Counted from the first letter of the stretch, positions 6,150 through 17,700 are shown. The stretch is DNA of 64,000 nt from Bacteroidota bacterium (GCA_022709695.1 JAKLII010000002.1:472955-536954); one strand, 5' to 3'. The notes: generated by a model not told the origin, from the letters alone. Made by a program: numbers and translations.

Positions 6150-8795
6150 ATGAAAAACCGCCATCTGCTTCACTGTGTTCATGGGGATATCACGGTAACG
6201 GCAATCCTGTTGATCCAGTGGTTTTTTGCCCTGAGTGTTACCGGGCAGCCATTGCCGGAAGATACTTCCTCTGTTGATAAAGTGATGCTGAATCAGTGGC
6301 TTAAGGTGCCTGTATCCACATCACCGGCACCCCTGTTCGGAGAACAGGAGAACCTCCGCAAAAAGGTATTCAGCGACGAAGAGCTGCTCCGTTCCGAACC
6401 ATTTCCGGTCAGTGAGCTGTATCCTGAGGCAAAGGAGTTGTTTCAGTTTCTGCCCGGCTCACGATGGGAGCCTGTCTCATGCGACAGCACCGGAGTTTTA
6501 CTTTCTTCCCTGCCTTCAGACACAGCCGGGATCGCATGGCTGGCCACCTACCTCCACGCCGGCCGATGGCTTACAGGGAGCCTTGACATCAAAGGGGCCA
6601 TGTTGTTTTCGGTCTGGCTCGATGGAAAAAGTCTGGGGGATAAGACCCGTGCCGGAACCGATGAAAAACCGGGCAGCATCACCAAACCCATCAAACTGGA
6701 GCCGGGAACCCATCTGTTGCTCATCAAAGTGGTGAGTCCTGCCAAACATGACTTTACTGCCAGGATTTCGGCAACTGTTGAACTGAAACTCCCGTTCCGC
6801 AGTCCGGATCTGGTCATCTCCACCAATCCCTCGGGTACAAAAAACATCCATCACATGCTTGACGGACTGAAAATCAACGGGATGGAATTATCGGCCGATG
6901 GGAAATACTACCTGGTGAGTTACAGGCAAACCCTCCCCCCGGGCGACGGTTCCGAGAGCTGGAGCGAGATCAGGGAGGTGGCAGGCCGGAAGCTGATACA
7001 CAGTTTCCGCCATGCCAGCGTATGGAGCATCCACTGGCTCCCTGCCTCAAACCGGATATCTTACCTGGCTGGTCAGAACGAGAAAACCACCCTCTGGCTG
7101 CTCGATATTGAAAAAGGGAGCGTTACACCCCTGCTGCGGGACGTGGAAAAGCTGGCGGGGTACCGGTGGTCGCCCGATGAATCCTTCGTGGTCTATACCG
7201 TCTGGGAGGAGCCCGAAAAGAAACAGGAGGTGATGCGGAAGCTGGATGGGATGCCCGACCGGCAGCCCGGCTGGCGCAACCGGTCGTTCCTGTACAGATA
7301 TGACCTCACATCAGGAGTATCCACCCGCCTGACCTGGGGGAACCAGACGACCTGGCTTTCCGATATCAGCCCCGACGGGAAAAAGATCCTGTTCGGCCAG
7401 AGCTATCCCGATTTTTCGGAACGCCCTTACAGCCGGCAAAACATGTTCATCATGGACCTGGATACCTACCGGCTCGATACCGTTCAATACGAAGAGCCCT
7501 GGGGTGTTACAGCCCGCTTCTCCCCCGACGGTAAGGATCTGCTGGCCACGGGCGGGCCATCCTGTTTCGGGGGAGCAGGACTCAACATTTCTCCGGGGAA
7601 AATCCCGCACAACTCCGACAACCAGATCTACCTGTACCACATTGCAGATAAGAACGTTAAATGCCTAACCCGCGATTTCAACCCTTCGGTGGAGGAGGTG
7701 TTCTGGCATCCCCTGGACCGGCAGATCTATCTGGTGACTATTGATAAGGACCTCCGAAGGCTGTATAGGCTGGAGATGCCTTCGGAAAAGTTTTCCCCCC
7801 TCGAAACAGGGGTTGAATACCTCACCTCCGTCAGTTTCGCCTCCAAAACCCCGCTGGCCATGTTCCAGGGGAACCAGGCAAACCACTGGCCCTGCTGGTT
7901 TACCATCAACCTTAAAAATCTGAAATACAGTGTTTTTGAAGACCCTGAGGCAAAAAATTACCGCCATGTGACCTTCGGGGAGGTGAAGAACTGGGACTTC
8001 ACAGCCTCCACAGGGGTAAAAATTACAGGCAGGGTCTATTATCCTCCCCATTTTGATTCCACGGCAAAGTACCCGGTGATCGTATATTACTATGGCGGCA
8101 TCACCCCGGTGGGGCGCACCTTTGGCGGCAGATACCCGTTCAACATCTGGGCCGGCAACGGCTATCTGGTGTATGTGCTGCAGCCCAGCGGGGCCATCGG
8201 GTTCGGACAGGAGTTCTCCTCGGCCCACGTGAACAACTGGGGTACCACGGTAGCCGACGAAATCATAGAAGGGACGAAGAAGTTCCTGGAAGCCCATCCC
8301 TTCGCTGACAAAACCAAAGTGGGGTGTGCCGGGGCCTCCTACGGCGGATTTATGACGATGCTGCTGCTTACCCGAACCGATATCTTTGCGGCGGCGGTAG
8401 CCCATGCGGGTATCAGCTCCATCTCGAGCTACTGGGGCGAGGGGTACTGGGGTTACTCGTACAGCGCCGGAGCCAGCGCCAACAGCTTCCCGTGGAACAA
8501 CCGGGAGCTCTACGTAGGACAAAGCCCGTTGTTCCATGCCGACAAGATCCACACCCCGCTGCTGCTCACCCACGGCGACGAAGACACCAACGTGCCGCCG
8601 GGCGAAAGTATCCAGATGTACACCGCCCTGAAACTGCTGCAACGGCCGGTGGAGCTGGTGCTGGTGAAGGGCGAAAACCACCACATTGTCACCTACAGCA
8701 AGCGGATCCTGTGGCATAATACCATCATGGCCTGGTGGGACAAACAACTTAAAGACCAGCCGGAATGGTGGGACGATTTGTATCCGGATAATTAG
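6150..8795 (+). CDS. S9 family peptidase (prolyl oligopeptidase / dipeptidyl peptidase type)
   Basis: An 881-residue exported serine peptidase. The N-terminus is hydrophobic (residues 16-32) and ends V-T-G-Q, which fits a signal peptide. About residues 230-610 form a beta-propeller with repeated S-P-D-G/S-P-D-E strands. About 640-875 form the alpha/beta hydrolase domain. The nucleophile is Ser730 in G-A-S-Y-G-G, the acid is Asp812 in H-G-D-E-D-T-N-V-P, and the base is His844 or His845 in E-N-H-H. Family members cleave short peptides, often after proline or other favoured residues, from the periplasm; the exact specificity cannot be read. The N-terminal 200 residues are longer than in classic prolyl oligopeptidase and look like an added beta domain. 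It is monocistronic, with its own -7 element and repeat-rich DNA downstream. Confidence 0.88.
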   Translation: MKNRHLLHCVHGDITVTAILLIQWFFALSVTGQPLPEDTSSVDKVMLNQWLKVPVSTSPAPLFGEQENLRKKVFSDEELLRSEPFPVSELYPEAKELFQFLPGSRWEPVSCDSTGVLLSSLPSDTAGIAWLATYLHAGRWLTGSLDIKGAMLFSVWLDGKSLGDKTRAGTDEKPGSITKPIKLEPGTHLLLIKVVSPAKHDFTARISATVELKLPFRSPDLVISTNPSGTKNIHHMLDGLKINGMELSADGKYYLVSYRQTLPPGDGSESWSEIREVAGRKLIHSFRHASVWSIHWLPASNRISYLAGQNEKTTLWLLDIEKGSVTPLLRDVEKLAGYRWSPDESFVVYTVWEEPEKKQEVMRKLDGMPDRQPGWRNRSFLYRYDLTSGVSTRLTWGNQTTWLSDISPDGKKILFGQSYPDFSERPYSRQNMFIMDLDTYRLDTVQYEEPWGVTARFSPDGKDLLATGGPSCFGGAGLNISPGKIPHNSDNQIYLYHIADKNVKCLTRDFNPSVEEVFWHPLDRQIYLVTIDKDLRRLYRLEMPSEKFSPLETGVEYLTSVSFASKTPLAMFQGNQANHWPCWFTINLKNLKYSVFEDPEAKNYRHVTFGEVKNWDFTASTGVKITGRVYYPPHFDSTAKYPVIVYYYGGITPVGRTFGGRYPFNIWAGNGYLVYVLQPSGAIGFGQEFSSAHVNNWGTTVADEIIEGTKKFLEAHPFADKTKVGCAGASYGGFMTMLLLTRTDIFAAAVAHAGISSISSYWGEGYWGYSYSAGASANSFPWNNRELYVGQSPLFHADKIHTPLLLTHGDEDTNVPPGESIQMYTALKLLQRPVELVLVKGENHHIVTYSKRILWHNTIMAWWDKQLKDQPEWWDDLYPDN

Positions 8796-8820
8796 AAATT
8801 AAAAATTAGAAATTAGAAAT
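8794..8820. repeat. AT-rich word tract (AAATTAGAAATT type)
   Basis: Just after the peptidase stop the sequence consists of tandem imperfect copies of AAATTAGAAATT. It belongs to the same word family as 5245-5280 and 14685-14730, in the opposite orientation. Confidence 0.55.
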
Positions 8821-8834
8821 TTGAGTGTTCAAGT

Positions 8835-9106
8835 GTTCAACGATCAAAGATCAAGGATCAAAGAAAAGGGTTCAAGAGGTTCAAATGTTCGGGTGCTCGA
8901 GTGTTCAACGATCAAAGATCAAGGATCAAAGAAAGGGGTTCAAGAGGTTCGAGTGTTTGAATGTTTGAGTGTTCAACGATCAAAGATCAAGGATCAAAGA
9001 AAGGGGTTCAAGAGGTTCGAGTGTTTGAATGTTTGAGTGTTCAACGATCAAAGATCAAGGATCAAAGAAAGGGGTTCAAGAGGTTCTAATGTTCGAGTCT
9101 TCTAAT
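8835..9106. repeat. Four tandem copies of a 68-bp repeat
   Basis: Units start at 8835, 8903, 8971 and 9039, so the period is exactly 68 bases. Each begins GTTCAACGATCAAAGATCAA and continues through GGATCAAAGAAAGGGGTTCA and AGAGGTTCGAGTGTTTGAAT. The two central copies are nearly identical, and the outer ones carry substitutions in the last 20 bases. Within each unit the words GATCAAAG/GATCAAGG and GTTCGAGTGTTTGA are themselves internally repeated. There are no variable spacers, so this is not a CRISPR array. It is non-coding and of unknown role. Confidence 0.9.
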
Positions 9107-9114
9107 GTTCGAGG

Positions 9115-9365
9115 AATTTTTAGCTCCGTAGGAGCGTACTCTTTGTAGCAACGACGGGCATCCCCACCAAACCAAAAGCTCCGTAGGAGCGAAACATCGG
9201 TAGTGGATTGAACAGCAGTAGCCCCGGATCGCATCCGGGGAAACAATGCGCCCCCGCCGCCCTACAACCCACGAAGTGGGTTGAATAAGATTAGCCCCGG
9301 ATCGCATACGGGTGAAACAAGCGCCCCAACAACCAAAGAGGGCGTCTCAAAAGAGACACCCTCCT
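9115..9365. repeat. Mosaic of REP-like short palindromes
   Basis: A series of separate perfect or near-perfect hairpins: GCTCCGTAGGAGC at 9123-9135 and again at 9178-9190; CCCCGGATCGCATCCGGGG at 9222-9240; AACCCACGAAGTGGGTT at 9266-9282; a degenerate CCCCGGATCGCATACGGG at 9295-9312; and GAGGGCGTCTC paired with GAGACACCCTC at 9338-9363. No open frame crossing it looks like a real protein. A decayed relative of the right-hand part lies at 10993-11095 in the same orientation. Confidence 0.8.
9338..9363. terminator. Hairpin, possible bidirectional terminator
   Basis: Two 11-base arms pair with one G-T/G-U position around an AAAA loop. It lies between a rightward peptidase and a leftward lipocalin gene, where a terminator is expected. 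No strong T-tract follows, so termination is only inferred. It is also the last palindrome of the mosaic repeat. Confidence 0.4.
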
Positions 9366-9469
9366 ATTATCTCCACGGATGCATGGCCGCGAAGCAGCGT
9401 AGCTTGCCGTAAGGTTATATCTGTGATAGTAATGCCCGCAGGGCAGGCAAAACCTGACCGGGGATAACC

Positions 9470-10006
9470 TTATTGCTGTTTATTATGTTCAATCCACAAA
9501 AGGTCTGAGGTATTGTATCCAAAATCCTCAGCAATCTTTAAATATTTGGTTTTTATCTCATCAGGTATATTGGGTTCTCTGGATAAAATCCACAGATACT
9601 TAAAACTTGCTCCGGCAACCAAAACGTATTTATAATCAGAGTCAATTGCTATTACATTATAACCTGAATAAAAAGGACCAAAAAAAGATACCTTAAGCTT
9701 CCCGATCGTATCAGCTCCGACAAATTTAGCTTTTCCAACCGCCTGTTCCCATTCTCTCTTTTTTACATTATATCCTTTATTCAATACTTTAATGGTACCA
9801 TTAGTATTTAAAGAATATTCGGCAGTTGTATTGTTCAGATCTCTTTCATATTTAAAATCAATCCGGGCAATTTCAAACCATTTGCCAAGATACTTACCTT
9901 TTTCGAAAGGTTGTACCGCTGTTACCCCTTTGGGTATGGTTGAACAAGAATTAAATCCAATCATAATAACAATATTGAAAAATAATAATAATTTTCCGGT
10001 TCTCAT
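9470..10006 (-). CDS. Lipocalin family lipoprotein (Blc-like)
   Basis: 178 residues from the ATG at 10004-10006. This start gives a lipoprotein signal ending in the lipobox I-G-F-N-S-C (Cys21). The mature protein begins with the lipocalin signature Y-L-G-K-W-F-E-I-A-R and a Y-x-x-x-x-x-G-x-I-x-V-x-N motif. Near the end, Y-K-Y-V-L-V-A-G-A and L-W-I-L-S-R match conserved blocks of bacterial lipocalins. The family binds fatty acids or lysophospholipids at the outer membrane, often under envelope stress; the ligand here is inferred. The codon use is AT-rich, unlike the peptidase upstream. It is the leftmost of six same-strand single genes. Confidence 0.87.
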   Translation of the reverse strand: MRTGKLLLFFNIVIMIGFNSCSTIPKGVTAVQPFEKGKYLGKWFEIARIDFKYERDLNNTTAEYSLNTNGTIKVLNKGYNVKKREWEQAVGKAKFVGADTIGKLKVSFFGPFYSGYNVIAIDSDYKYVLVAGASFKYLWILSREPNIPDEIKTKYLKIAEDFGYNTSDLLWIEHNKQQ

Positions 10007-10174
10007 TTCATTCGTTGTTTTAAAATCTCTTATTTTCAAATCCCGCATACAACCAATGGCGGAATGTGCCATAGGGAATTTCACAGCCGTGCTGGTATTA
10101 CACATAACGAACCTCTATGTTTGCTGAAACGCCTGATATATGGTTATAGTGTCCCGCTGCCTGCCACAGGCTGG
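10007..10174. other. Spacer with weak attC-like inverted repeat
   Basis: The spacer between two leftward genes contains CATAACGAACCTCTATGTTT (from about 10102) facing ATATATGGTTATAG (10136-10149). The ends can pair as TAAC/GTTA with interrupted stems. It is much less regular than the elements at 12798-12927 and 13611-13745 and may not be functional. Confidence 0.3.
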
Positions 10175-10663
10175 TTACCATGTATACCTTATGCCAAGAG
10201 CAGCACCCCAGCCAAACCCATTATTATATCCGATAAAATCAAACATTGGGCGGGTATCCAAACTTACTATAATCGGGGCACCCGATTTATTAAAATCATA
10301 TTCTATTCCTATCTGGCCTCCTAATCCTATGTTTAAACCCCTGCTTGAAGTGATTTTATCATCCCAGTTATAAAAACCCAATATTGCTCCGGGCCCTATG
10401 TACCAGTTCCAGCCGCCCTTTATATTCCAATCCCACTGATACACGCCTGAGATAAACATATTGCGATAGTGTTTATAACCTCTGAATCCCAAATCGAATT
10501 CCAGGCGATTTGCATCTCCCATACCATGCTGATATGATAACTCAGCTCCATTTGTACTCCCATCCCCTCCAAAGCGAAGTCCCAGGGCATGTGGGTTTAT
10601 CTGGGCCTGGGAAAACAAACTTACTCCAAGAACAAGTGTAAAAATCAATACTGCTTTTTTCAT
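10175..10663 (-). CDS. Small outer-membrane beta-barrel-like protein
   Basis: 162 residues. Residues 1-21 are a signal peptide (M-K-K-A-V-L-I-F-T-L-V-L-G, ending F-S-Q-A-Q). The rest has alternating hydrophobic and polar residues rich in Gly, Trp and Tyr (for example W-D-W-N-I-K-G-G-W-N-W-Y-I-G-P-G) and ends in an aromatic residue (R-Y-T-W), as expected for an eight-stranded outer-membrane barrel. It resembles small OmpW/OmpA-barrel-like hypothetical proteins of Bacteroidota. The function is unknown. A -7-like TACCTTTG is about 200 bases upstream (10868-10875, minus strand). Confidence 0.75.
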   Translation of the reverse strand: MKKAVLIFTLVLGVSLFSQAQINPHALGLRFGGDGSTNGAELSYQHGMGDANRLEFDLGFRGYKHYRNMFISGVYQWDWNIKGGWNWYIGPGAILGFYNWDDKITSSRGLNIGLGGQIGIEYDFNKSGAPIIVSLDTRPMFDFIGYNNGFGWGAALGIRYTW

Positions 10664-11239
10664 AATATCTGTTTTTAAATTTTTTACTCGTATGGTTTTT
10701 CGGTTTTGTTCCGTTATAAACGGTTTTTAGTGTGCACTTACTGGTTTTGCGACATTCATCCACGTAGGTCAGGTACTGTCATCGTATCTCTTCGGTGGTT
10801 CTCTCGTCTGTCCGCTGTAAATCTTTAACGTGTCCATAGCGTTTCAGCATTTCGCCCGTCAATTCAGCACAAAGGTAATAAAAAACCAGATTCAGCAAGT
10901 GCAATCGGAATAGTAAAGGGATTTGAGGGGGCAGGGCGAAGCTTCCGGAAGTGAAGCGATTCGGGATGGAGGCAGCGGGGTTCCGGGAGCGAAGCATGCT
11001 GCCCCCCAACCCACAAGGAGGGTCGAAAGGATTAGCCCCGGATCTCATCCGGGGGAAACATGCGCCCCAACACCCAATGAGGACGTCTCAAATAAATCTC
11101 TTTTCCCTCACGGCAGGAAGACCGCGTAGCTGTTTTACGCAGTCCACTCAAAACTTGAATTTTGAAATTCATCAACAAAATCAACTTGTTGGCAGGAATT
11201 CAAAATACGGCAAGGCCGCATGCCTCTGCATTTGTTTAT
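10664..11239. other. Non-coding spacer with palindromes and a decayed repeat copy
   Basis: It contains CCGTTATAAACGG (10711-10723), a short palindrome next to TGTGCACTTACTGGTTTTGC. A GC-rich part at about 10930-11095 includes GCTTCCGGAAGTGAAGC and CCCCGGATCTCATCCGGGG. The segment at about 10993-11095 aligns with 9266-9350 of the first palindrome mosaic. The leftward frame at 10779-11048 reads into the repeat and is not a credible gene. Confidence 0.55.
10993..11095. repeat. Degenerate second copy of the palindromic repeat
   Basis: It shares with 9266-9350, in the same order and orientation, the blocks AACCCAC, GATTAGCCCCGGAT, ATCCGGG, GAAACA, GCGCCCCAACA and CGTCTCAAA. The two copies are direct repeats bracketing the lipocalin and barrel genes. 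Confidence 0.65.
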
Positions 11240-11875
11240 TTAGTTTGAAATAAAGGGTGACTTTTTAATATATGATTCATTTGAAAGCTGTTTGATGAGA
11301 AAAACCGCCAAATCAGTTGTGCTAATTTTTCTACCAGGGCAATCCGTCAGACTTACTTTGATTGCTCCTGATGTTTCCGATGGTTCGATAAGTGGCAGCC
11401 GTACAATTGTCCAGTCCAGATTGCTTTCTGAAATGATCGAATACTCTCTTTGTTTGTCTGCAATGACAGCAGAGTAACTCAGTTTCATGATTTTGGAGAG
11501 CAATTTTGTTTTAAAACTCTTCCTGTCAAAAGGTGTATCAATGGTTAAGCCGGTGATTACAATATACCTCCTGATATTGAAAGAATTCATTGCCCTGATG
11601 ATATTGGAGCTTGATACACTATGAACAGGCTTTTCACCTTTGGACTGGCCCAGCGCACTAATAACTGCGTTACAACCATCAATGAGGGAAAAAACAGTTT
11701 CATAGTCTGTGACATCCCCTGTTACCTTTTCTATCAAAGGACTGCTGATCTTTAATTTATCCGGGTTACGCAACAATACCTTTATTGTAAAACCTTGATT
11801 TACCAAATGTTTTACTAAAAATTTTCCGGCTTTGCCGGTTCCGCCGATTATGGCGATTTTATTAAACTTTTCCAT
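11240..11875 (-). CDS. NAD(P)H-binding SDR-like reductase/epimerase
   Basis: 211 residues. The N-terminus carries the dinucleotide-binding motif I-I-G-G-T-G-K-A-G-K-F (residues 8-18) after a beta strand. Then come L-L-R-N-P-D-K (the position that usually contacts the NADP phosphate), G-D-V-T-D, and N-A-V-I-S-A-L-G. This is the atypical SDR / NAD(P)H-binding family (NmrA- and BVR-B-like), which includes flavin reductases and nucleotide-sensing regulators. No classical YxxxK catalytic pair is obvious, so the activity is unknown. The gene is AT-rich and separated from its upstream neighbour by a 90-base spacer holding a strong hairpin. Confidence 0.83.
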   Translation of the reverse strand: MEKFNKIAIIGGTGKAGKFLVKHLVNQGFTIKVLLRNPDKLKISSPLIEKVTGDVTDYETVFSLIDGCNAVISALGQSKGEKPVHSVSSSNIIRAMNSFNIRRYIVITGLTIDTPFDRKSFKTKLLSKIMKLSYSAVIADKQREYSIISESNLDWTIVRLPLIEPSETSGAIKVSLTDCPGRKISTTDLAVFLIKQLSNESYIKKSPFISN

Positions 11876-11905
11876 AATTGCATTTTGTCAGGGCTGTATA
11901 ATCCC

Positions 11906-11948
11906 TAAGGCTTCGTGTGGCTTTGTTCCTCAGCCGTACGAAGCCTTA
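11906..11948. other. Strong intercistronic hairpin (attC-like or terminator)
   Basis: TAAGGCTTCGTGTGGCT (11906-11922) pairs with AGCCGTACGAAGCCTTA (11932-11948) at 15 of 17 positions around a 9-base loop, followed by AC. Read on the minus strand it begins GTTAAGGC. It lacks a T-tract in either direction, which argues against a standard terminator. Confidence 0.7.
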
Positions 11949-11965
11949 ACTATCAGAGGCAGGCA

Positions 11966-12739
11966 TTATTTGATTCTTTTCCCGATATAAAACACATAAC
12001 CATAATATGCTTTGTATTTGTAAAATAACTCTGCCTCATATCGCTGATAGGCTATAAATTGTTCTGCGGATCTGTTGCCCTTATATTTTTCCAGAAAAGA
12101 GGCTTGCATTTGTGGTTGCAGAGCATAATAGTCAGTCCAAACAGTTTCAGGTACAACAAAAGTAGCAATCGGAAGATATCCTGTTTTTTGCATTTGTGCA
12201 ACCTTGTTAGATATTGTGTCTATTTCAGGATAGGCTTTTTGCCAAAAATCCTGTATCTCGGCTGGTCGCTCTTCGGTAAACCATGTATTTTCTGTAACAG
12301 CTAAATATCCTCCCTGTTTCAGAAATTTTCGCCAATTGTTTAATCCACGTTCAAATCCAATGTTATAGATTGCACCCTCCGACCAAATCAAGTCAAATTC
12401 TTCCTCTTGAAACGGAAGTTCTTTCATATTGTCCACAATGCCTTTTACTCTATCCTGAAGATTTTTGTTTTGGGCGTTTTTGTTTAATTGGTTGACATAA
12501 TCAGAACATAAGTCAACACCAATGATATCACACGATGTGTTTTGTCCTAATACCATTGTTTGACCGCCTGTTCCGCAACCAATATCGGCAATTTTAGATT
12601 TTTCGGTAAGACCCTCAATAAAACTCAATGCTTTGAGTGTTATATCGGGACTCCCTGGTCCTTGACGATCTGTGTTTGAAAAGTATTCCAGAATAATATT
12701 CAAGTCAAATTCCCAGATTGTTTCTTTTTTATGGTTCAT
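11966..12739 (-). CDS. Class I SAM-dependent methyltransferase
   Basis: 257 residues, no signal peptide. Motif I is [11 protein letters not shown] (about residues 58-68), then G-V-D-L-C (motif II, binding the ribose of SAM), and [10 protein letters not shown] (motif IV). This is the Methyltransf_11/25 type of Rossmann fold. The substrate is not evident; a small molecule is more likely than nucleic acid given the short C-terminal cap rich in Tyr. The gene is AT-rich and flanked on both sides by spacers with long inverted repeats, which suits a mobile single-gene cassette. Confidence 0.87.
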
Positions 12740-12797
12740 ATCAGTCTTACTTAGTATTATTCCCTTTTAATTCGAAGGTGTGTTACCTGCTTAATTC

Positions 12798-12927
12798 TAA
12801 CGGCTGGTAAGCTTAAATCTGTTGTGGTCGATTTCGCAGGAATTGTCCGCATGCTCTACCGCTTGATTACTTGCGTCAGTATCCCTCAGTAGATGACACA
12901 TCAATAGTTTAAGCTTGCTGTTATGGG
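12798..12927. other. attC-like long inverted-repeat spacer element
   Basis: Left end TAACGGCTGGTAAGCTTAAA (12798-12817) faces right end TTTAAGCTTGCTGTTATGGG (12908-12927). The arms pair over AAGCTTAAA/TTTAAGCTT and again at TAAC/GTTA with unpaired bases between. Inner segments (TGTTGTGGTC and GATGACACATC) show weaker complementarity. The TAAC...GTTA boundaries and interrupted stems resemble integron attC recombination sites. Confidence 0.55.
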
Positions 12928-12945
12928 TTGTGCAATTCTTCAAAT

Positions 12946-13593
12946 TTATTCCTTATTCTGAAAAATCAATAATTGTAATGAAGCAGGCATATCATGCTCA
13001 TTAAAATTGATTTCTTGTTTTAATAAGCTTAATAATTCAACCATTTGCTTACTGTTTGAATATTCTAAATACAAGTCTGGGCTATGATAATGATAGATTT
13101 TATATTTGCCATGTTTAATAAATTCTACAGCATAGTTCGTACCATCTGATATTTCTTTATCTTTCCAACCCTTAATATCTTCTTGATTGGGCAAATCATA
13201 AATTTTATATTTATTGATTTCATTGAGAAAAATTGGCCATCCGGATTTTGGCACTCTTTTCTCTACAGAGAAAGTGTCTATTTGAATTTCAAAAGGATCA
13301 ATATTTAGTTTCTCTAAATAAAGATATACGAAGCAATTCCAACCTATGTAATTTTTTTTTATAATGATTAATTGACCAAATCTTTTTACTCCAGCTTTGG
13401 ACCAAATACGAATTTCGAGCGAGTCTGAGGAGTTTTCAAGATTGTTTAAATTTAATGAAGCAGAAATTTTCTTTTTATAATATCCAGAATAATAATGTAA
13501 TATTGTATCAGTGCCTTCACTAGAATTCGTAGTTCTATTGAATTGACAACTCAAGAGAGTAAAAGCAAATAATATTACTATATATTTTTTCAT
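12946..13593 (-). CDS. Hypothetical lipoprotein
   Basis: 215 residues from the ATG at 13591-13593. This start is chosen because M-K-K-Y-I-V-I-L-F-A-F-T-L-L-S-C is a clear lipoprotein signal (lipobox T-L-L-S-C, Cys16). An alternative ATG five codons upstream (13608) is possible. The mature protein is rich in Lys, Ile, Tyr and Asn, with no family motif I recognise. It contains G-W-P-I-F-L-N-E-I-N-K-Y and a C-terminal helix with K-Q-E-I. Very AT-rich codon use compared with genes outside the block suggests acquisition by transfer. Function unknown. Confidence 0.65.
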   Translation of the reverse strand: MKKYIVILFAFTLLSCQFNRTTNSSEGTDTILHYYSGYYKKKISASLNLNNLENSSDSLEIRIWSKAGVKRFGQLIIIKKNYIGWNCFVYLYLEKLNIDPFEIQIDTFSVEKRVPKSGWPIFLNEINKYKIYDLPNQEDIKGWKDKEISDGTNYAVEFIKHGKYKIYHYHSPDLYLEYSNSKQMVELLSLLKQEINFNEHDMPASLQLLIFQNKE

Positions 13594-13610
13594 TTTCTTT
13601 CTGTGCATAG

Positions 13611-13745
13611 CCCATAACGTTTGAGGCTAAAAGCTGGCGGGCATTTCGGAGCACTTCTCTGTCAAACTTCGACGAAGTTTATTAGTTGTAATGCCCTTCA
13701 ATTCAGCACTATCCGCCCGCTTGATTTTAGCCTTTGTTTTGTGTT
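13611..13745. other. attC-like three-tier inverted-repeat spacer element
   Basis: Between two leftward lipoprotein/exported genes. Left boundary CCCATAAC at 13611-13618. Outer stem GGCTAAAAGC (13625-13634) pairs with GATTTTAGCC (13723-13732). Second stem GGCGGGC pairs with CCGCCCGC (13713-13720). Central perfect hairpin AAACTTCGACGAAGTTT at 13664-13680. Such nested, imperfect stems with a TAAC-type boundary are the hallmark of attC sites. Confidence 0.6.
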
Positions 13746-13766
13746 CGTGCATTTTTTCTATCATCA

Positions 13767-14378
13767 TTATCTGTTTTTATTCCTTTTCCCTTTGTTTTTC
13801 TTATGAACTTCAATACCATCAATGTATCTTATTGGAGCAACATTATCATCAGCAAGGAGAAAAAACCATTTTGAAAGAGTATTATCAGGATTATCTTCTA
13901 TTGGTAATCCTCGCATGACAAAACAAAATTTTTGTCCTTTATAACTTATTTCAACAAAATGAATAGCATCATGTCTAATATTTATACTCTGATAAGTTGG
14001 AATTACGGTAATGGTATCAATTCTATTCATAAAAAAGAAGTCAATAATTGAGTCATTTACCAATATTTTAAATTCTTGTTGTCCTAAACCATACAATCCA
14101 TCTCCATTATGGAATGGTATTTTTAATTGGTAACAAATACCTTGGTTCTTCCAGATTACTTTACCGTATCCGTTAAACGATCCAGTGCTAAGCCAATGAC
14201 TATAAATCAGAATTGTGTCTATTCCAGTTTTTTGCAAACTATCTCTTATTTCTATGATTCGTTTGTCAACTGGATGATTAGATTGCTCATTACCGCAGGT
14301 ATTTACTTGTCCATATGTTTGCACTGAAATTAAAATTAAGAATCCTAAAATCAACTTATAAGATTTACTTTTCATCAT
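13767..14378 (-). CDS. Hypothetical exported protein
   Basis: 203 residues from the ATG pair at 14373-14378, which gives a signal peptide (L-I-L-G-F-L-I-L-I-S-V-Q-T-Y-G-Q). The frame is open a little further upstream, but without a signal at its start. The mature part contains W-L-S-T-G-S-F-N-G-Y-G-K-V-I-W-K and F-C-F-V-M-R-G-L-P, and a Lys/Arg/Asn-rich end. I do not recognise a family. The gene is AT-rich. It is preceded by about 330 bases without a gene and followed by the attC-like element at 13611-13745. Confidence 0.6.
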   Translation of the reverse strand: MMKSKSYKLILGFLILISVQTYGQVNTCGNEQSNHPVDKRIIEIRDSLQKTGIDTILIYSHWLSTGSFNGYGKVIWKNQGICYQLKIPFHNGDGLYGLGQQEFKILVNDSIIDFFFMNRIDTITVIPTYQSINIRHDAIHFVEISYKGQKFCFVMRGLPIEDNPDNTLSKWFFLLADDNVAPIRYIDGIEVHKKNKGKRNKNR

Positions 14379-14709
14379 AACATTACTTAATTCTTGCAAT
14401 ATTGTTCTTGCATGACACACAACTCACTTATAGAACCGGTATTTCCGTATATACATAAAACCTTTGGTATGTATTGTCCAGAAAAGGGCCGTTTTTATTC
14501 GTGTGCATAGGCGATTAGGTTGGTTTAGCCCCTCAAAGATAGGTACTTTTACAAATGATCGAACGGTGAGCAATTTTTTTATGCTGTGGTCCGATACGCG
14601 GGTACGGATCATATCGGTACAAATCCGTAAGATCCGATTTATCCGTGTGCCCTTGGGGTTCATCTACCGAGTCCCAAACCGATCATTTCTCATTTTTAAT
14701 TTCTAATTT
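14379..14709. other. Gene-free spacer with short words and a small palindrome
   Basis: About 330 bases with no credible gene. It holds ATACATA...TATGTAT around 14451-14475, repeated ATCCG/CGGAT words at 14595-14645, and a tract of TTTCTAATTTCTAATTTTTA near 14690-14725 that belongs to the dispersed AT-rich word family. Confidence 0.45.
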
Positions 14710-17700
14710 CTAATTTTTAATTAAAATCCTCTTCCCTTCCGAGTGTGACGCGAATTCAGGGGCGTACATGCACTGGATGGTGGTGATGCCGTTGGAGAAA
14801 TCGCCGGTGTGGGTGGCGCGGAGGCGGTACTCGAACACATAGGTTCCCTTGCGGAGGTAGTCGAAGAAGAAGTTGACGGCGGCATCGCGCGGACTTTCGT
14901 AATACCCCAGCCCCTGCTGCCAGCGGTACCCCGAGAGGGTGGTTTCGGGCTCCAGCGCCGAGGCGCGCATGTCCTTCATGTGCACGTACTCCATGTCGCG
15001 GTCGGCCCGCAGCTCGATGCGTACCACGATACGGTCGCCCACCTGCAAGGCGGTGGTGTCGGTAACCGGGCGCATCACGGTGCCCTTGGCGGTTTTCTCC
15101 TCCACAAACAGCTGCTTCTTCAGTGCCAGCGGGGTGGCCTGCCCGGTGATCTTGTCGAGCTGCTCGAAATATTGCCAGTACACCGCCCCCCAGGAGGCCC
15201 CCTCGTTGAAGGTGGTAACCTGCACGTCAGCCATTTTCGGGGTCACCTCGCTCCCGCTCCACGACACCTTGAAATACCCCGTACCCGCTTCGGGGGCATT
15301 GCCCTCCTGGTAGGGATCCACCGTTTTCTTTCCCACGCGGATCTCTGCAGGTTTTCCCTGCGCCAGCAGGTTGCTGCCCCGCATCAGCAGGGCAAAGCAG
15401 GCCTCGGTGGTGGCTTTGGTGGTCTTCCAGTCGGTGGTCTGCTTCTGTTTCAGCAGCCAGATTTTCATCTGCTCCACTGCGTCGCGGTCGCCGGCCACCT
15501 GGTCGAATACCTCGATCATCAGCGCCTGCCGTTCGATAGGCGCCTCGTACCAGTAGTATCCGGCATTTCCTGCCCAGTACATCCCCATCTCCTCCTTATG
15601 AAGGCTCCGCTCCTTAAGCGATTTCACGATATCTGCGGCAGCCGCCCCTTCGTTCAGCGATTTCATGGCCAGGGCCAGGTATCCCTGCATCATGATATCC
15701 TGGGTGGTCCAGTACTGCAGGGCCTGTTTCTTCAGCCAGTTCCATGCTTCGCTGGTAGATTTCCGGAGCGGGTACTGGCTTTCGAACCCGGCACGCAGGT
15801 ACAGGTACTGGATGATCAGCTGGTTCAGATGATTCTTCTCCAGATCGGCCGGTTTCAGTTTGTAATTTTTCTTCAGATCGTTGAAATATTCTTCCATCCG
15901 TTGATCCAGGTAGTACACTGCTTGAGAGGTAATGGCTTCAAGTTCAGGCTCCTGCTGAAGGCTGATCACCCCGGCACTCTGCAACCGGTACACGCCAATG
16001 ACAATATGCTGGGTGATGTACCAGCTGTCGGGACCCCCTTTGAACCAGGGCCATCCGCCGTTTTCGGTCTGCTGCTCCTGCAACTTCATCAGGATCGTTT
16101 GTTTTTCGCCGGCCATCCGGTTGAGGTCGAACAGCAGTGCCACCCGCTGTTTGCGGTCGGTTTCGGAGGCTCCCTCCATCAGCCAGGGGGTCTCTTCGAG
16201 CAGCAGCCCCTTCAGCTCCTGGTTCTTCTCCAGATTGGAGCGCAGGGCATCGGGCGAGAGGGTTTTCCAGCTGTCGAACACCGCTTTGATCTGCTGACTG
16301 GAGTTGGCAATATAGCCGGCCATGGCGTTGGCAAAATAGCGGCTGAAGAGCTGTTCGGAGCATTCGTAGGGGAATTCCATCAGGTACGGGAGCGCCTGGA
16401 TAGCATACCAGGCGGGGTTGGAGGTGTACTCGAGGGTGAGTTTGTGGTGTTTGAGAGTGCGCGAGTTCCCCGAGGCCGCGAGTTTTTCGAAAGTAAACTC
16501 CCGGGTCTGCGCACCGTTCACTGGCATAGGCATCGTTTCGGTTACCAGCATCCGGTTGGTGAGCACCGGGATCGTCATCTCCTCGCCGTCGGAGAAGCTC
16601 CCCGAGGTGGCAGTAACCCGATAGGTAATGGCTCCGGCCCCTTCGGGAATGGTGATATCCCATTGCACCACCCCGCTCTGTCCGGGAGCTACGGAAACCT
16701 GTTTCACAGGTTCGAGGTTTCTGCATAGGGCATCCATACCGGCACCCGTAAGTCCGCTGCTGAGTTTCAGGGTAACACTGCACACCTGTTCCTGCTGCGA
16801 GAGGTTGGTAACTTTGGCCGTGAAGGTCATCTGATCCTGTTCACGGAAAAAGCGGGGGGCGTTGGGCACCACCATCAGTTCTTTCCGGGTAACCAGCTGT
16901 TTCTCCAGCGTTCCGATGCGCAGGTCGGGGGTGTGGGCCAGGCACATCAGCTTCCAGGCCGTGAGTGACTCGGGTACCTTGTAACTGAACACCACGTTTC
17001 CTTCGGCATCGGTCATGAGCTGGGGGAAGAAGAAGGCGGTTTCGCTGAAGTTGGTACGCGGGGGAGCGGCTGCCGGGCTGGATTTTGCTTCTTCGACATC
17101 AGGAAGATCCTCCACAGACAAACTGTCGGCGATGGCTCCTTCCTTCCTGACTTTAAAGTTACCATTGGTTTCTTCGGTAACGGCATAGTCACCCCTCATG
17201 TCCAGGGCAGCCTCCTCCAATTCAACCCCTTTGCTGAACGCCCCCCTAAGAAAGCCCCTGCCCCTTCCGCTGCCAGCATGGAGGTAACCATACCAGTTCA
17301 GCCTGTCGTACTGCTGGTTGCGGTATTTGTAGTTCGTGCGGGGCGCAAACGACAGATAGGTTCCGCCGGTATGTCCAAATGCCTGGTGGTTCCACTGCAG
17401 GTAGCGACCGTTCTGCTCATACAGCCAGAACTGCCAGCTATTGGATGCAAAGGCATCGAGGGAGGCATCGTACATACCGGCAAGGAGTTCTGCCATCACT
17501 TTATCGCCCGTATGACCTATGATGGTAACCCTGTACTCCTCCTGCTCACCCGGCTGCAGTTTATCCCTGAAGGTGGCAAACCGGATATCGAGGGTTTTGT
17601 TTGAGAAGGGAACCTGCAGGAAGGAGGTATGGGTATAGGGGCGGTTGTTGTACACCATGGCCAGGTGAAATGCAACGCCACCGCGGTGTTCCCCGAGTAC

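Follow-up and report, generated by a model that had tools for sequence, protein, structure and literature searches.

Integron integrases (IntI) are defined by an additional domain (PMC9668308), and this I2 domain is held to be necessary for the recombination of attC sites (PMC8138268, PMC9668308); how I2 and attC could have originated without each other has been described as a chicken-egg paradox (Escudero et al. 2016, PMC4792948). Surveys have found almost no complete integrons in Bacteroidetes, with only In0 reported earlier and one integron, in Salinibacter, later (PMC9024848), and reviews name Bacteroidota among the integron-bearing phyla (PMC8618304). Here we analysed a gene-cassette array in a stretch of 64,000 nucleotides from a Bacteroidota bacterium (GCA_022709695.1, JAKLII010000002.1:472955-536954; henceforth referred to as the window, with positions counted from its first letter). 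On the evidence of its sequence, it is very probable that positions 12800-14620 (minus strand) are an integron whose integrase gene has been deleted, leaving the final ~24 codons of that gene, an attI site, two complete cassettes and the beginning of a third, and that it belongs to a family of integrons that would work in the manner proposed below, with an integrase that lacks I2.

The attC sites were sought with a covariance model (R1) built from 45 attC sites located downstream of integrase genes, of which 41 came from other genomes, four from an array on contig C21 of the genome that contains the window (henceforth referred to as the source genome) and none from the window itself. Candidate sites for the model were gathered by a script seeking AAC...GTT stems. 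The features of the array are as follows:

14549 to 14618, minus strand: decayed 3' end of an integrase gene, ~24 codons with one frameshift and the original stop kept; the rest of the gene is absent
14423 to 14548, minus strand: attI-like region, homologous to the attI of locus L022 on contig C1 of the source genome, with the cut between 14423 and 14422
13618 to 14422, minus strand: cassette 1 (TTGTGTGTC ... G), one gene and attC1
13767 to 14378, minus strand: cassette-1 gene, ~203 aa, signal peptide-like N terminus, no Pfam match
13610 to 13744, minus strand: attC1 (R1 97 bits, E 3e-23)
12801 to 13617, minus strand: cassette 2 (TTATGGGC ... G), one gene and attC2
12946 to 13608, minus strand: cassette-2 gene, lipoprotein-like, ~220 aa, no Pfam match
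12793 to 12928, minus strand: attC2, divergent (R1 21.2 bits, E 1.8e-4 in a 7 kb search with filters off)
11966 to 12800, minus strand: 5' part of cassette 3, which starts TTAGAATT; methyltransferase gene at 11966-12739

The first clue to the attC sites was that cassette 2 opens with GTTATGGGC and the repeat that follows it with CCCATAAC, the two being complementary as in integron cassettes. Indeed, the start of cassette 2, GTTATGGG, is the exact reverse complement of the start of its own attC (CCCATAAC), and the start of cassette 1 agrees by inspection at 8/9 bases with the expected partner of its own attC R'' (ACACAAAAC). attC1 was the sole R1 match at E<10 in the 64-kb window and the top attC match in the source genome, and its predicted fold is more stable on the bottom strand (-20.8 kcal/mol, z -3.5) than on the top strand (-18.8 kcal/mol). 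The bottom strand is likewise the more stable one in attC2, the stem of which was independently recovered by the AAC...GTT script that also recovers attC1. The array therefore has what is expected of an integron in this respect, at least two attC sites between single same-strand genes, with the second site being weak. The product of the cassette-1 gene is predicted to be exported, and no relative of the cassette-2 protein was found among viral contigs.

The end of the array at which the integrase gene would be expected, overlooked in the original prediction (14421-14618), contains attI and what remains of an integrase gene. Window positions 14421-14587 align with positions 2234-2402 of L022 (77.5%, E 4.7e-30) over the 3' end of the integrase gene and the region downstream, the aligned stretch in L022 spanning from the integrase stop to the first cassette; the remnant's reading frames give TDMIRTRVSDHSIKK...SPFDHL-stop, set against TTEIYTHVTDNSLKKIRSPFDDL-stop. 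The attI core in the window, TATAAGTGA|GTT at 14432-14421 (the bar marks the cut), conforms to a core, TATAAA-n-n-A|GTT, that the window shares with most of 13 loci in which the first cassette comes soon after the integrase stop, the distance being ~100 nt in most of these and ~775 nt in L086. Thus, attI lies beside what is left of the integrase gene and the cassettes start at G|TT. Since both the remnant and attI align to L022, the integrase appears to have been lost in place, and an integron with an attI and an integrase gene deleted in place is a better description of the array than a cluster of attC sites lacking an integrase (CALIN) seeded elsewhere. A TATCTTTG box located ~10 nt past the integrase stop in the attI region is a candidate cassette promoter; a box of the form TAnnTTTG is enriched but not general in attI regions (21/72 loci compared to 7.3 expected), and the full -33/-7 pattern was seen in 13 loci. 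As a separate observation, the 50 nt at window positions 14615-14664 are 82% identical to the region upstream of the C1 integrase (L022 984-1033) and also resemble two places in L021, and may be a dispersed repeat.

The array has many relatives. We surveyed 295 Bacteroidia genomes (the same class as the source genome), scoring an integrase relative as present at E<=1e-60 and attC at E<=1e-8. An integrase relative was found in 128 genomes and attC in 211, and attC was present in 127 of the 128 integrase-positive genomes (the exception being G179) compared to 84 of the 167 negative ones (Fisher p 1.3e-24, a guide only, as the species are related). A canonical IntI scored above the curated cut-off in a single genome. 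When R1 was run on 56 loci it returned 132 matches, 129 of them on the integrase strand, downstream of the gene, and three on the opposite strand, upstream of it, and it returned no match in loci with canonical IntI or other Xer-like genes. All 18 stem pairs of the model show double-sided changes; 91.7% of cells pair, a share favoured by the script's selection for stems, and the covariation score is 0.852 compared to 0.182 when shuffled and ~0.1 when slid. The script's selection does not favour agreement among sites on the positions of pairs and unpaired bases, and two unpaired stem bases that it did not impose are conserved (C in 44/45 and A in 42/45 sites). At 47 cassette boundaries, each defined by a pair of consecutive sites, we compared six variable bases following GTT at the cassette start with those preceding AAC in the cassette's own attC: they were complementary at five or more positions in 38/47, a level that random pairing reaches in 5.4% (binomial p 7e-40), and complementarity within sites was like that of random pairs (mean 2.5 of 6). 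The complementarity at boundaries is likewise no product of the script's requirements. The starts of first cassettes had all nine predicted bases in nearly all loci examined, and the bottom strand was more stable than the top strand in 36/45 attC sites (p 1e-5).

Two intact integrase genes of this type are present in the source genome itself, and attI and cassettes come after each of them. The source genome also has attC sites away from both integrases on contig C15, at 189111-189243, 324877-325013 (weak) and 326244-326378. The integron on contig C21 (L017, G000:C21) contains, at 8496-12234 on the minus strand, a first cassette with a five-gene operon resembling a cyclic-oligonucleotide-based anti-phage signalling system (CBASS) according to PADLOC models (QueC, TGT, cyclase, two-transmembrane (2TM) effector and OGG), and towards its far end the array has two isochorismatase-family genes that resemble each other (L017 1-458 and 2844-3341), possibly a duplicated cassette. 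Outside the source genome, Chryseobacterium sp. SNU WT5 has an integron of the same kind on a plasmid (L220, NZ_CP041688.1), in which no fewer than five attC sites were seen; its array also encloses an IS110-family transposase and the reverse transcriptase of a group II intron.

The integrases of the source genome are tyrosine recombinases of 384-386 aa that score 209-211 with TIGR02249, below its cut-off of 265. Residues 182-242 (61 residues) of VchIntIA (2a3v) face only 19 residues of the Bacteroidia integrase, which places a gap at the IntI-specific domain, and the same gap is seen in the alignment to TIGR02249. Judged by sequence, the Bacteroidia integrases lack the ~40-residue IntI-specific I2 domain; an IntI with I2, otherwise expected of an integron, is found neither in the window, which has the 3' remnant only, nor in its intact relatives. 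Consistent with this, the spacing between the KDR and HxLRH motifs is 62-68 residues in those Bacteroidia proteins where both motifs were located, compared to 105 in IntI1. The AlphaFold model of the integrase is confident (mean predicted local distance difference test (pLDDT) score of 86), with VchIntIA 2a3v as its top PDB match, and has an extra N-terminal domain of ~80 residues that folds separately in the prediction (pLDDT 89). In comparisons with VIA-align, this domain matched the N-terminal region of XPB at Z ~5.3, within the range of common arrangements, and since the best Z (5.4) was tied between eIF1/SUI1-like proteins and XPB, the domain was given no fold on this basis. A tree of 69 sequences groups the Bacteroidia integrases with IntI and XerA-like proteins in a 100/100 clade that excludes XerC/XerD. 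Inside this clade IntI in turn receives 100/100, but its placement there and the branching order are poorly supported (96/76, an open fork), so that the I2-less state may be either ancestral or the result of loss. One of the source genome's integrases, P0001, exceeds the NF040815 cut-off by one bit (221.3 compared to 220).

Taken together, these features suggest how the family would work. The integrase, a tyrosine recombinase of the Xer/IntI group without I2, would be expressed from a gene read in the cassette direction, with attI (TATAAA-n-n-A|GTT) ~100 nt downstream; circular cassettes would be inserted at attI one by one via folded single-stranded attC sites of ~135 nt, probably through their bottom strand and with the cut at G|TT, and a promoter within the attI region would drive cassette transcription. 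The ~80-residue N-terminal domain, weakly HARP-like, may help to bind folded attC. We are evenly divided on a more specific idea, namely that the Bacteroidia integrase never had or has lost I2 and uses its N-terminal domain as a structure-specific, HARP/XPB-like DNA-binding domain for attC, in which case it would be either a second solution to the recognition of attC or a surviving relative of the form that existed before I2 was acquired.

Other explanations have to be weighed against in-place loss of the integrase from an integron. The original prediction of a CALIN-like array without an integrase stands insofar as the cassettes carry attC and the window holds no intact integrase gene, and needs amending in that attI and an integrase remnant are present. 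In a true CALIN an integrase working in trans would have placed the cassettes at a secondary site, and there would never have been an integrase gene here; the two or more attC sites without a neighbouring integrase agree with this definition, and the source genome offers both intact integrases elsewhere and attC sites distant from them. Off-target insertion, however, fails to explain why the integrase 3' end, its stop and attI occur in the right order and at the right spacing before cassette 1, and we regard this explanation as very improbable. It is also very improbable that the I2-less integrase is a mere neighbour of the arrays, with the attC sites being worked by a canonical IntI in trans or by XerC/D and the cassettes passively inherited. 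Such a scheme would accord with the published view that attC recombination needs I2 (PMC8138268, PMC9668308) and with the attC-bearing genomes that have no strong match to the I2-less integrase, but canonical IntI occurs in 1/295 genomes, attC accompanies the I2-less integrase in 127/128, and the arrays begin directly after its gene. Scarcely credible is the view that no cassette system exists here and that these are AT-rich accessory genes of an ordinary kind, with hairpins resembling terminators: it suits the three leftmost genes of the interval described below, whose spacers have no attC, and the strong but non-attC hairpin in one of these, but leaves unexplained the 97-bit model match, the exact complementarity of the cassette-2 ends, the attI and the integrase remnant, and is already refuted for 12800-14620.

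Several points weigh against the integron reading itself. Both the score and the fold of attC2 are weak (21 bits; z -1.3 to -2.1), and no attC was found after the methyltransferase gene of cassette 3. The AAC/GTT ends are invariant among the R1 sites by construction, because the script demanded such ends, and the multi-genome attC searches were run with stricter filters than the window search. The 84 integrase-negative genomes with attC may have divergent or missing integrases, assembly gaps, CALINs or another enzyme. With regard to the N-terminal domain, Pfam HARP matched 6/42 members (best E 7.6e-5) and the HARP domain of SMARCAL1 (4o66) was matched with a profile E of 0.044 and a Foldseek E of 0.13; because every match is weak, a HARP-like domain is only a lead. 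Finally, we infer the recombination of the cassettes from sequence.

The original prediction extended the array over six genes at 9470-14378. Six consecutive open reading frames do lie on the minus strand at 9470-14420, with a G+C content of 30-43% compared to 47-58% in the surroundings, and their mixed cargo is borne out by Pfam (lipocalin, NAD(P)-binding, S-adenosylmethionine (SAM)-dependent methyltransferase and three genes without a match). The extent of the array has to be reduced to two full cassettes and the first part of a third, as the three leftmost genes have no attC:

9470 to 11965, minus strand: three further genes (NAD(P)-binding, barrel-like, lipocalin) and their spacers, no attC or attI found

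Similarly, the structured spacers that had been described were found as AAC...GTT-ended imperfect inverted repeats at 13610-13744 (in the spacer 13609-13766) and 12793-12928 (in the spacer 12740-12945), and the spacers at 11876-11965, 10664-11239 and 10106-10174 have no attC. The proposed check with an attC model, here R1, supported two sites and did not refute an array; with filters off over 8500-15500 it gave, beyond 12793-12928 and attC1, no match below E=0.3, and an Rfam scan of 8700-15000 gave no attC family and no match above the gathering score. No cassette structure was seen in the three leftmost genes. The guess that this could be a divergent Bacteroidota cassette system proved right, in that the window array belongs to a family widespread in Bacteroidia.

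Some other lines of evidence were tried and set aside. Homologues of the methyltransferase occur in three other genomes of the class, with a second copy in the source genome (C1:483363), and do not prove cassette status, because one of these four genomes (G113) has no attC match. Synteny was sought via the alpha-2-macroglobulin and S9 peptidase genes on the flanks and their relatives; in the only same-genus genome compared (86% complete), attC and the integrase are both absent and one of the flanking genes is unmatched, and the locus was not comparable. In a scan of the source genome for the exact motif RNCGTTATRGGC, the non-window matches inspected resembled chance occurrences in coding DNA, and matches were fewer than with the reversed control. 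Among other repeats, the spacer at 11876-11965 contains a strong hairpin at 11906-11948 (9-nt loop, AAGGCTTCGT arm, fold z -3.9) that is not an attC, resembles hairpins 3' of genes in L022 and looks terminator- or repeat-like. Four tandem copies of a 68-nt repeat lie at 8820-9159, between the peptidase gene and the interval, and a GC-rich repeat with a GCCCCGGATC...CCGGGG palindrome at 9201-9351 and 11015-11092 is also matched in L022 and L025.

We found no account of I2-less Bacteroidia integrons in the full-text literature searched, most subscription papers and all preprints lying outside it, and NCBI labels a Chryseobacterium plasmid protein of this kind 'site-specific tyrosine recombinase/integron integrase'; the family is widespread and, provisionally, appears undescribed. 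A link to SOS/LexA in Bacteroidetes was not used, since the paper concerned merely cites integron work. A search based on I2 would be expected to miss the dedicated integrase in 128 Bacteroidia genomes, and the attC arrays point to a large unread pool of cassettes, of which the CBASS-type operon on C21 is an example. If the I2-less integrase works, it would provide direct material for the chicken-egg question of I2 and attC.

Compared to known systems, the Bacteroidia integrases share the absence of I2 and a common 100/100 clade with XerA-like archaeal and other simple tyrosine recombinases (5hxy, 4a8e; NF040815). In contrast to the Bacteroidia integrases, no attC array lies beside the archaeal or other non-Bacteroidia members examined, and these are ~80-100 residues shorter and so lack the N-terminal domain. 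That domain bears a weak profile and fold resemblance to SMARCAL1 HARP (4o66) and the N-terminal domain of XPB, whereas known HARP proteins are helicase-like and not recombinases. With CALINs (IntegronFinder; PMC9024848) the window shares a cluster of attC sites without an intact integrase gene, but it keeps attI and the integrase 3' end, so that the loss of the integrase appears to have happened in place. The likeness to classical integrons (class 1; Vibrio VchIntIA) comprises attI, arrays in one direction, attC of the RYYYAAC/GTTRRRY type with a covarying stem, complementary cassette ends, a more stable bottom strand (a known bias of classical attC) and 2a3v as the top structural match of the integrase; unlike in classical integrons, the Bacteroidia integrase lacks I2, has an extra N-terminal domain of ~80 residues and is encoded by a gene read in the direction of the cassettes.

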